From: Desulfofustis limnaeus
GTDB taxonomy: Bacteria > Desulfobacterota > Desulfobulbia > Desulfobulbales > Desulfocapsaceae
DNA length: 64,000 nucleotides
Assembly: GCF_023169885.1 (NCBI RefSeq)
Contig: NZ_AP025516.1
Coordinates: forward strand, 3,761,501 to 3,825,500
Direction of reading: 5' to 3'
Shown here: piece by piece, positions 40,140 to 42,967 of the stretch
How the letters are laid out: each line of letters opens with the position of its first letter
Position numbering within the stretch: position 1 is the first letter of the stretch
Position numbers and translations under genes: made by a program
The notes under the pieces: generated by a model
The model's input: only the letters and a program-made list of their open reading frames with translations
Databases searched by the model: none
What the model was told of the DNA's origin: nothing

Positions 40140-40178
40140 AAAAAAAGGCTGTATTCTCCAAAAGGAAAATACAGCCCT
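40140..40178 (-). terminator. Rho-independent terminator after the YedE-type gene
   Basis: On the minus strand a 9-bp stem (40176-40168 with 40155-40147) is followed by a run of at least six T. It lies about 27 bp after the stop codon of the gene at 40205-41449. Confidence 0.9.
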
Positions 40179-40204
40179 CGGATGACCAGCGCTATACGCA
40201 GCTC

Positions 40205-41449
40205 TTACATCGGCACAATCAGCTTGTTGGTTTCCTCATTCCAGGTGACCACCAGATACCACAAAAGAAGAAAGACCGCGATGAGCAGAAGTGTCGGCCC
40301 ATAACCAAACACGTCGGGAAGATAGATATATTTCCCCAGTCCGCCGCTTGCTTCCAGGTCCATGTCCTGAAACCAAGCGGTAACCAAAGAGGTGGACAAG
40401 GCAAAAAATGGTACGACAATCATCAGTTTCACCTGTCCTTCGCCCACCCGCCAAAGGGTTCCGGAACCGCAACCACCGGCAAACATGGCGCCTATTCCGA
40501 AGATAAAACCACCGACCACACCGCCCCAGCCAAAGGTCCCCCGTACGTAATGAGCGGGATCGAGAACGGCGTAACCGTCGGCGCGAAGCGGAACGGCGTA
40601 CTTCAGGACAGCAGCACCGATAGCCACCACCAGGATGGACAGCATGACCGACTTGGCCATGGTACAATCTCCGGTCATATGTGGTTCTCGAAAACCCTGA
40701 ACCATGCACCAACGCCCCCGTTGCATAGCGTAACCGAGAGCGGCGGCAATCATGATGACGCCGCCGAGGGTGGCTATGTAATCACTGTCTTCGTTGGCCG
40801 CAAAAGCATAGGCCTTCCACACCAGAAAGACGATGGCAGCGATCCCGAGTAGAGACACGACAACCTTGGGGAACTCGATGGTTCTGGCGCCGCCATCACC
40901 CCAGCTAATGTGCTCCATCTCCAGATAAATCAACTTCAGTCCGAGGATGACGCCGAATACCAGTCCCAGCATCATGGCGAAACCGTTGGCGGACAAATTA
41001 CCGAGCGCGTTATAAAACCCGCCGACATTGCAGCCGCCGGCCATTGAGGCACCGATACCCATCAGGATACCGGCAATAACTGCTTTTATCATCTCTCGGT
41101 AGGGGGGAATGCGCAGGGCGAACTCACGGCCCAGGCAGGCGGAAATAAACGCGCCGAGAACGAAGCCGATACCGATCACCGATCCTGAATCGACGAGAAG
41201 CGAGCGCGGTGCCTCATAATAGAACCAGAAGATGCCAGCTTCAGTATCAAAGAGCGACGCCAGACCATAATACATCCAATCTCCCCAGTTACGCAGGGCA
41301 CCAACCGCCCCCCAGGGTCGCCACCAGGCCATGATAAGGACGGAAAGAAAACCGACCACTATACCGGTTACCGTGGGGTTCCACTCCGACTGACACAGGG
41401 CTTTATACAAGCCTTTCAACTTGCTCACCACAATGCTCTGCTCGCTCAT
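40205..41449 (-). CDS. YeeE/YedE-family sulfur-compound transporter
   Basis: A 414-residue polytopic membrane protein with about ten hydrophobic segments. Two related halves carry conserved glycine/cysteine motifs, AGGCNVGGFYNALG and AGGCGSGTLWRVG, and a third cysteine region near RGRWCMVQGF. YeeE/YedE proteins transport thiosulfate or related sulfur or selenium compounds, with the cysteines lining the pathway. It is divergent from tusA and dsrE-like genes across a 273-bp gap with a strong promoter. This gene set matches the YTD cluster of sulfur-disproportionating bacteria; a role in importing sulfane sulfur is inference. A selenium-related role (YedE/FdhT type) is the main alternative. Confidence 0.9.
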   Translation of the reverse strand: MSEQSIVVSKLKGLYKALCQSEWNPTVTGIVVGFLSVLIMAWWRPWGAVGALRNWGDWMYYGLASLFDTEAGIFWFYYEAPRSLLVDSGSVIGIGFVLGAFISACLGREFALRIPPYREMIKAVIAGILMGIGASMAGGCNVGGFYNALGNLSANGFAMMLGLVFGVILGLKLIYLEMEHISWGDGGARTIEFPKVVVSLLGIAAIVFLVWKAYAFAANEDSDYIATLGGVIMIAAALGYAMQRGRWCMVQGFREPHMTGDCTMAKSVMLSILVVAIGAAVLKYAVPLRADGYAVLDPAHYVRGTFGWGGVVGGFIFGIGAMFAGGCGSGTLWRVGEGQVKLMIVVPFFALSTSLVTAWFQDMDLEASGGLGKYIYLPDVFGYGPTLLLIAVFLLLWYLVVTWNEETNKLIVPM

Positions 41450-41496
41450 ACCGTCCCTCCAAAAAAGACAATTGAAGAAATAACTGCATGCCCGGA

Positions 41497-41525
41497 TTTT
41501 TACCTTTGCTCACCGGATTTGTCAA
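41497..41525 (-). promoter_or_regulatory. Predicted promoter of the YedE-type gene
   Basis: On the minus strand a perfect -35 TTGACA (41525-41520) and TAAAAA (41502-41497) are 17 bp apart, about 50 bp upstream of the start codon. The divergent tusA gene must use a separate promoter in the same gap. Confidence 0.65.
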
Positions 41526-41722
41526 CTCTGGTACCACTTCGAAACTAACGGCTTTTCCGTTGCTTTTTAAGGCTAACTTTGTTTTTATATAACTATTTAT
41601 GATGCTCAAAATCGAACCGGATATGATAGATTGATATCGTTGTGTAGCTTTCCCGCTGAAGGGATAATCTCGTTGTAATAAAGCGTTTTTTACCAGGTGA
41701 ATACACTACCAGGAGGTCTCCC

Positions 41723-41980
41723 ATGAGTGATGTAAAACAAGTTGCTGCAGACGTAAAGGCCGATTCAGTTCTCGATGCCAAAGGCTTAAGCTGCCCCATG
41801 CCGTTGCTTCGCACCAAAAAAGAGATAGGGAAACTCAAAAGCGGTCAGATCTTGCAGATCGACGGAACCGACCCGGGTTCACGGAACGATATTCCCGGCT
41901 GGTGTGAACGAGCCGGTCATGAGTACCTGGGAGAAAAGGAAGGCAGCGGCCATTTCAGCTTTTTTATCAAAAAGGGCTGA
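41723..41980 (+). CDS. tusA: TusA-family sulfur carrier protein
   Basis: The 85-residue protein has the TusA/SirA/YedF core: VLDAKGLSCPMPLLRTKKEI with the Cys-Pro sulfur-carrying motif (Cys near residue 27), then GQILQIDGTDPGSRNDIPGW. An N-terminal extension of about 15 residues precedes the core. TusA proteins carry persulfide to partners such as DsrE-type proteins. ATG at 41723 has AGGAGG upstream. It heads the plus-strand half of the sulfur cluster. The tusA name reflects family, not proof of tRNA thiolation. Confidence 0.92.
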   Translation: MSDVKQVAADVKADSVLDAKGLSCPMPLLRTKKEIGKLKSGQILQIDGTDPGSRNDIPGWCERAGHEYLGEKEGSGHFSFFIKKG

Positions 41981-42017
41981 TTTGACGAACCCCCTCTGAG
42001 GGTAAGACATACCTGTC

Positions 42018-42048
42018 GACCCCCTGTTCTACCATTGAAACGGGGGTC
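42018..42048 (+). other. Intercistronic hairpin between tusA and dsrE-like gene
   Basis: GACCCCC (42018-42024) pairs with GGGGGTC (42042-42048) around a 17-nt loop, in the 123-bp gap between tusA and the dsrE-like gene. No U-tract follows. It could set the relative mRNA level of tusA. Confidence 0.5.
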
Positions 42049-42103
42049 AGACGGTTGAACCAACAGCCGCTTTATTTCCGTACTATCAAAGAGGAGAATT
42101 GAG

Positions 42104-42418
42104 ATGGCCAAGAGTCTTGGTATTTTTGTGACCAATCCAGACTGCCTGCACCATGTCATTGGCATAACCAAGGCAGCAAAGGCAAAAGGGTCGAAAGTAA
42201 AAGTCTTTTTCACCTGGACCGCCACCCATAACGCGAAAGACAAGGCCTTTCCTGAGCTTTGTTCTCTTGCTGACGATGTTTCCATCTGCGTCGATAGTTA
42301 CAAGAAACAAGGGTACGACCCCGCTGATATACCCGAAGGCTTGACCGATAAAAAGATGGCTACTCAAGCGCAACACGGTATCATCATTGAAGATTACGAT
42401 TGTTATCTTAGTCTATAG
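42104..42418 (+). CDS. DsrE-like protein
   Basis: A 104-residue alpha/beta protein: LGIFVTNPDCLHHVIGITKA, then KVKVFFTWTATHN, ELCSLADDVSICVDSYKKQG and HGIIIEDYDCYLSL. Cysteines near residues 13, 51, 61 and 100 are candidates for persulfide binding. The fold and spacing match the DsrE/DsrF-like superfamily. ATG at 42104 is preceded by GAGGAG. It is nine bases upstream of the next gene. In the YTD-type arrangement it would receive sulfur from TusA; this is inference. Confidence 0.85.
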   Translation: MAKSLGIFVTNPDCLHHVIGITKAAKAKGSKVKVFFTWTATHNAKDKAFPELCSLADDVSICVDSYKKQGYDPADIPEGLTDKKMATQAQHGIIIEDYDCYLSL

Positions 42419-42427
42419 GAGGGGGTC

Positions 42428-42730
42428 ATGGAATATAAAAAGGTCTGTTTTCTTTACCGAAACAAAGACTATGCTGTCGACGGGATACGTTCTGCCTTGG
42501 GGCTCGCCGTGGAAAACATGTATTCATATGGTGTAGTCCTTGACAGTGAGTTGGAAAAGCTCGACGAGCACAACATGGAAAGCATTGAGATGCTCCGGGA
42601 TATGGAAGGAGAAATATTCACAACGGTTCCCGCCAATAACGAGAAAAACGGTTTCGAAATGATGACCCTCGAAGAGGTTGGCGAGAAGCTTCGTGAGATG
42701 GATATTGTCGTTCCCTACGGTTTGAAATAA
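42428..42730 (+). CDS. Conserved sulfur-cluster protein, possible DsrF-like fold
   Basis: A 100-residue protein with an N-terminal strand YKKVCFLYRN holding the only cysteine (Cys-6), then SALGLAVENMYSYGVVLDSEL and a C-terminal VGEKLREMDIVVPYGLK. The beta-alpha-beta pattern is similar to DsrE/F-type proteins, but I cannot name the family. ATG at 42428 has GGAGGG directly upstream. It is 9 bp after the dsrE-like gene and 11 bp before the 57-residue gene. Confidence 0.75.
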   Translation: MEYKKVCFLYRNKDYAVDGIRSALGLAVENMYSYGVVLDSELEKLDEHNMESIEMLRDMEGEIFTTVPANNEKNGFEMMTLEEVGEKLREMDIVVPYGLK

Positions 42731-42741
42731 AGAGGTATCTA

Positions 42742-42915
42742 ATGAAAATACTCAACATATACCGGTCAGAGCCTGACGATACCGTTAAAAAGCTCGTGGA
42801 AATAGTAAACAGAGACAGGGAAACAGATACTTTCGATCTCACCGTCGCAAACCCCGATTATGATGCTTTGGTCGATAAGATCTTTGAGGCCGATCAAACC
42901 ATTTGTTGGTGGTAA
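42742..42915 (+). CDS. 57-residue small protein ending in Cys-Trp-Trp
   Basis: ATG at 42742 (AGAGG at 42731-42735) opens a 57-residue frame ending TAA at 42915. The protein has an N-terminal strand MKILNIYRSEPDD, two amphipathic helices and a C terminus DQTICWW whose only cysteine is third from the end. It follows the 100-residue gene by 11 bp and is followed directly by a terminator, so it is the last gene of the cluster. The C-terminal cysteine resembles in placement the mobile-tail cysteines of DsrC and TusE; a sulfur-relay role is inference. Family not recognised. Confidence 0.75.
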   Translation: MKILNIYRSEPDDTVKKLVEIVNRDRETDTFDLTVANPDYDALVDKIFEADQTICWW

Positions 42916-42934: not shown

Positions 42935-42967
42935 AAAGCGGATCCTTCTGGAGGATCCGCTTTTTTA
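42935..42967. terminator. Terminator between sulfur cluster and serine hydrolase
   Basis: AAAGCGGATCC pairs with GGATCCGC plus T-run (stem 42938-42945 with 42953-42960, 7-nt loop, six T at 42961-42966). An A-run ahead of the stem makes it potentially bidirectional for the convergent gene ending at 42978. Confidence 0.92.

Follow-up and report, generated by a model that had tools for sequence, protein, structure and literature searches.

The five genes at positions 40205 to 42915 of a 64,000-nucleotide stretch of the Desulfofustis limnaeus genome (hereafter the window) were identified, from their sequence and arrangement, as a further instance, in Desulfofustis, of the already known YTD cluster, and they probably take part in the import of sulfane sulfur and its relay along the route YedE, TusA, DsrEFH, DsrC, DsrAB, and AprAB-Qmo/Sat. 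The YTD cluster (Umezawa et al. 2020), in the descriptions given of it in PMC9751629, PMC8780430, and PMC12998232, comprises yedE, tusA, a dsrE-like gene, and two conserved hypothetical genes. The window, which belongs to the same class, Desulfobulbia, carries the same five genes with no qualitative difference. The original prediction of a YTD set was thus right, the genes being the same five as in Desulfolithobacter. In 2026, the dsrE-like gene and the two small genes of the cluster were identified as DsrEFH type II (PMC13293266), and the genes of the window are named accordingly in Table 1.

Table 1. Features of the yedE-tusA-dsrEFH locus (positions in the window)
Feature	Position	Strand	Basis
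Intrinsic terminator of yedE	40144..40179	-	16-pair stem, 4-nt loop, T run
yedE/yeeE-type sulfur transporter gene	40205..41449	-	ORF, 414 aa
Divergent intergenic region, 273 nt; presumed promoters of yedE and tusA	41450..41722		Sequence
tusA, sulfur carrier	41723..41980	+	ORF, 85 aa; PF01206
tusA-dsrE hairpin, G+C-rich	42018..42050	+	RNA fold
dsrE of DsrEFH type II (dsrE-like)	42104..42418	+	ORF, 104 aa
dsrF of DsrEFH type II	42428..42730	+	ORF, 100 aa; predicted fold; co-inheritance with dsrE
dsrH of DsrEFH type II	42742..42915	+	ORF, 57 aa; conservation; dsrH tree follows cassette type
Intrinsic terminator after dsrH	42935..42963	+	13-pair stem, 3-nt loop, T run

All five ORFs were found where, and on the strands on which, the original prediction had placed them, and the terminators that it had put at both ends are strong. 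Its description of the genes as all tightly spaced applies to dsrE-dsrF-dsrH, with gaps of 9 and 11 nt, but is not quite right for the whole cluster, because tusA and dsrE are separated by 123 nt containing a hairpin; the gap between yedE and tusA is wider still. In the yedE/tusA intergenic region, a single σ70-like match (10 of 12 positions; 41525-41496, minus strand) was detected, a count not above chance, and an Rfam search of the 64-kb window returned only tRNAs. The gene order was kept, and yedE was divergent, in all 30 family loci that were read, as far as the contigs allow. Across these loci, the 57-aa protein was 74-88% identical and the 100-aa protein 60-87% identical. It is therefore apparent from the conserved order and the identity of the small proteins that the five ORFs are not chance ORFs. 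A relative of DsrE was present in 66 of the 93 genomes of the family. The cluster was likewise kept in 80 named loci from species genomes, in which yedE was mostly divergent and in a few cases co-directional, and the yedE of the window showed 54-87% identity with those of Desulfocapsa, Desulfopila, and other YTD loci.

The assignment to DsrEFH type II was examined protein by protein. TusA matched PF01206 (4e-24), and its catalytic Cys24, within the CPMP motif, was invariant in 89 of 89 homologs. The DsrE-like protein matched Pfam DsrE below the cut-off (0.057), and Cys62, invariant in 91 of 91 sequences, is the sole cysteine common to the 104-aa version of the window and the 110-aa version, which is 44% identical to it. 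Since this residue corresponds to position 67 of the 110-aa version, matching Cys67 as numbered for Electronema, Cys62 is presumed to be the persulfide site. Neither the 100-aa nor the 57-aa protein matched any family in the Pfam search, and their sequence profiles gave only chance matches to PDB sequences. The AlphaFold2 model of the 100-aa protein (pLDDT 94) had as its top PDB fold matches 3pnx, a putative sulfurtransferase DsrE, and 2fb6 (probability 1.00, E 1.5e-3), which gives moderate support, at this E value, for a DsrE/F fold in DsrF. The 57-aa gene is real: it was conserved in 87 sequences, with the C-terminal W56 and W57 invariant. The AlphaFold2 model of its product, DsrH, is a small alpha/beta structure (pLDDT 88) that found no significant fold in the PDB (best E 0.66), 57 aa being too short for such a match.

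The window thus holds three syntenic genes beside tusA and yeeE/yedE, a single invariant and presumably functional cysteine in DsrE, and a DsrF with a predicted DsrE/F fold, and reductive dsrAB co-occurs with them in the genome, as is known for DsrEFH type II. DsrEFH type I of Allochromatium vinosum is likewise a presumed sulfur transferase to DsrC, and the DsrE-family fold of DsrF and the weak DsrE family match of DsrE recall it. However, by the canonical DsrE/F/H family models used to assess type I membership, DsrE was below the cut-off and the other two proteins had no match. Unlike type I, the two small subunits of the window have no recognizable sequence similarity to it, DsrH has just 57 residues, and the set is linked to a reductive-type rather than an oxidative-type DsrAB.

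In the proposed relay, sulfane sulfur, perhaps as a polysulfide- or thiosulfate-like species, would cross the inner membrane through YedE. Cys24 of TusA would accept the sulfur as a persulfide and hand it to Cys62 of DsrE within the DsrE-DsrF-DsrH complex. DsrC would receive it from this complex at its C-terminal cysteine. The reductive-type DsrAB, acting in reverse, would then oxidize the sulfur atom to sulfite, a reaction unproven at the enzyme level (PMC13293266), and the sulfite would be converted to sulfate via AprAB-Qmo and Sat. This route could be used in net sulfur oxidation as well as in S0 disproportionation, where it would supply the oxidative half. For this genome, the scheme draws on the genes and their order, the conserved cysteines, the DsrF fold, and the partner enzymes, and the transfer from TusA through DsrE to DsrC is proposed by analogy with the Electronema homologs. 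With recombinant proteins of this cable bacterium, persulfide transfer from TusA to DsrE and on to DsrC was demonstrated in vitro, and Cys67 was essential for loading by TusA (PMC13293266). The conserved cysteines and this published work give good support to the earlier suggestion that sulfane sulfur may be imported and relayed by the organism.

The partner enzymes needed were found elsewhere in the genome, which was covered by searches and by the reading of selected stretches: a dsrA match (584 bits) with adjoining dsrB and a dsrD-like ORF, from which, rather than from a DsrAB tree, the reductive type was read; one DsrC with both C-terminal cysteines; aprA followed by qmoA; and sat. The relay could therefore end in sulfite and sulfate. 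The original prediction had seen no dsrAB, apr, or sat genes in the window; the dsrA, aprA, and sat matches of the genome all lie outside it.

YedE matched Sulf_transp (PF04143) at 9.2e-49 and is built of two Sulf_transp halves. Cys140, Cys248, and Cys327 were invariant in 79 of 79 homologs and aligned with C293, C22, and C91, respectively, of TsuA (6leo), the YeeE thiosulfate transporter of Spirochaeta thermophila, in which two of the three are reported to be indispensable. The locus could accordingly serve the uptake and cleavage of thiosulfate, with YedE and TusA acting like TsuA and TsuB and DsrEFH accepting the fragments. The three shared cysteines speak for such a role, as do the greater abundance of the YTD proteins of Desulfolithobacter during thiosulfate disproportionation and a second 2026 study of cable bacteria, which reached the same structural picture by modelling but regarded the complex as a structural analogue, not an ortholog, of DsrEFH and proposed that it splits thiosulfate. 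However, the 414-aa YedE aligned with TsuA only half by half, with the order of the halves swapped. Its scores against the TsuA models NF041049 and NF052577 (103.5 of 645 and 92.3 of 400 bits) and that of TusA against TsuB (20.1 of 147.5 bits) were far below the cut-offs. In addition, thiosulfate did not load recombinant TusA, DsrEFH II, or DsrC of the cable bacterium (PMC13293266), and the entry for D. glycolicus in PMC12998232 is negative for the disproportionation of thiosulfate. We therefore regard a thiosulfate-specific function as unlikely.

A role of the transporter in selenium metabolism, as a YedE/FdhT protein for which the tusA neighbourhood would be incidental, is very improbable. 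The only near-full-length colinear model match of YedE was indeed FdhT (NF033796), and the genome probably uses selenocysteine. Nevertheless, the FdhT score was 102.6 bits against a cut-off of 350 and the seleno_YedE score (TIGR04112) 39.4 bits against 200, and the linkage of yedE with tusA-dsrEFH was kept across the family. The alternative fails because a different gene of the same genome, scoring 499 bits, is a true seleno_YedE. A best match of the transporter to selenium-linked YedE, named beforehand as the result that would count against the sulfur reading, was thus looked for and did not appear. The true seleno_YedE gene (L044:6646-8535) has a small conserved-looking ORF next to it, and phosphate-type ABC transporter genes and dehydratase-activase genes occur in the same stretch. 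Two selD genes (G000:C1:281600-282523 and 929270-930196; L047 and L048) each contain an in-frame TGA, and so presumably encode two selenocysteine-containing SelD proteins. One candidate selenocysteine-containing YedE with an in-frame TGA proved to be two separate half-size genes of 132 and 248 aa, next to a quinol NO-reductase-like gene and the gene for its regulator. A split half-size YeeE/YedE pair (L043:7641-8683) adjoins NO-reductase-like genes.

Whether the sulfur relay also means disproportionation was considered next to the published surveys. If the cluster were machinery specific for S0 disproportionation, its presence would show that this Desulfofustis disproportionates S0. The nearest named relative, D. 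glycolicus, does so (PMC9751629, Table 1; PMC12998232, Table 1), and its strain DSM 9705 (NZ_FQXS01000013.1) has the same locus, with an 87% identical DsrE. All Desulfobacterota S0 disproportionators of one survey carry the cluster (PMC12998232), and the genome also has a short Eyh-like gene related to FlhB. On the other hand, dsrEFH type II occurs in just 25 of 63 (40%) cultured disproportionators and in many sulfate reducers that do not disproportionate (PMC13293266), and the searches and selected stretches of the genome revealed no complete MOLY cluster but just two genes of the TorD family, of which one adjoins an ArrA-like enzyme and the other narG. These points make an S0-specific function rather doubtful, though clearly less so than the thiosulfate-specific one. 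Because it is present in many sulfate reducers, the cluster by itself is not diagnostic and is no proof of S0 disproportionation here. The literature disagrees on its meaning: YTD was kept among the best candidates for disproportionation, though not as a marker sufficient on its own (PMC12998232), whereas DsrEFH type II, found in 985 genomes, was judged to mark the capacity for sulfur oxidation and not disproportionation (PMC13293266). Disproportionation and oxidation are not separable from the genes. The suggestion that the organism may be a disproportionator therefore stands as a possibility, given its congener, but not as a conclusion from the cluster.

No MOLY cluster is claimed, because the candidate TorD-linked molybdoenzyme is ArrA-like (1079 of 1600 bits) and has arsR- and arsenite-pump-like genes as neighbours. 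The genes for this ArrA/ArrB-like molybdoenzyme and a TorD-like chaperone (L146:5427-12345) hint that this sulfate reducer may be able to respire arsenate. The genome also contains narG/narH-like genes and, together with a gene for a NorR-like regulator, two quinol NO-reductase-like genes (L147:182-9174 and L043:10567-14615), which could possibly function in nitrate use or NO detoxification. Since nitrate- and arsenate-reductase-like genes, which might provide electron sinks, accompany the gene set for the relay, a Desulfofustis strain would be a fair test of disproportionation against oxidation. If DsrEFH type II marks sulfate reducers able to run their pathway backwards, the reading of genomes from sulfur-cycling communities changes.

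Comparison of the family loci suggested that dsrEFH has a history of its own. In nine loci (L052-L060), dsrE and dsrF were just 38-47% identical to those of the window, although the cluster occupied the same chromosomal place as in the other loci (L062-L141), lying between a nearby response-regulator-HD gene and dnaN-gyrB. Between these nine loci and Desulfocapsa, which has the version of the window, yedE and tusA were 80% and 86% identical, and dsrE, dsrF, and dsrH 42%, 41%, and 65%, respectively. The two cassette versions, defined by identity before any tree was built, were cleanly separated in a DsrE+DsrF tree; in a YedE+TusA+DsrH tree, Desulfocapsa fell inside the group of the other version. 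With YedE+TusA, the nine loci as one clade were rejected (p = 0.002). Conversely, DsrE+DsrF rejected the clade supported by YedE+TusA (p = 0.0017), a clade that was picked after the YedE+TusA+DsrH tree had been seen. DsrH alone, with only 57 columns, grouped as DsrE and DsrF did. When dnaN, beside the cluster, was used as an independent check, it gave the same topology, and the one-clade alternative was not rejected (p = 0.235). These trees suggest that dsrE, dsrF, and dsrH were inherited together and apart from yedE-tusA, as expected of one complex.

The gap between tusA and dsrE (41981-42103 in the window) also distinguished the two versions. Stems with 9 or more pairs were present in 37 of 77 loci of the window version, followed in 29 of these by a T-rich tract, and in 0 of 9 loci of the other version, where the gaps are shorter; with simple shuffles, related sequences, and unequal gap lengths, these counts are indicative only. 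It is the presence of a hairpin, in many cases resembling a terminator, and not its sequence, that is conserved among many loci of the window version. In the window, the region 41975-42110 folded better than shuffled sequences (z = -2.6); the hairpin itself lacks a T run, and its own stem did not go beyond its shuffles in the stem count. It is possibly an mRNA-processing or partial terminator element.

On balance, we lean towards the view that dsrEFH is a self-contained, exchangeable cassette that was replaced while yedE-tusA stayed, with at least one exchange setting Desulfocapsa apart from its nearest relatives, and that the hairpin may uncouple the expression of tusA and dsrE. If so, the exchange affected the transfer complex but not the import step, and it may have adjusted which sulfur species or which DsrC partner is served. 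The exchange and the hairpin are new but modest additions to a cluster already described. Because a published survey saw no sign that these genes had been transferred laterally (PMC12998232), the exchange deserves a wider test. Three genomes (G074, G007, and G008) carry both versions, the second copy having a co-directional yedE. In the second clusters recorded at L061/L131, L116, and L119, each of the five genes was present as a divergent copy, and the main locus of these genomes holds the other dsrEFH version.
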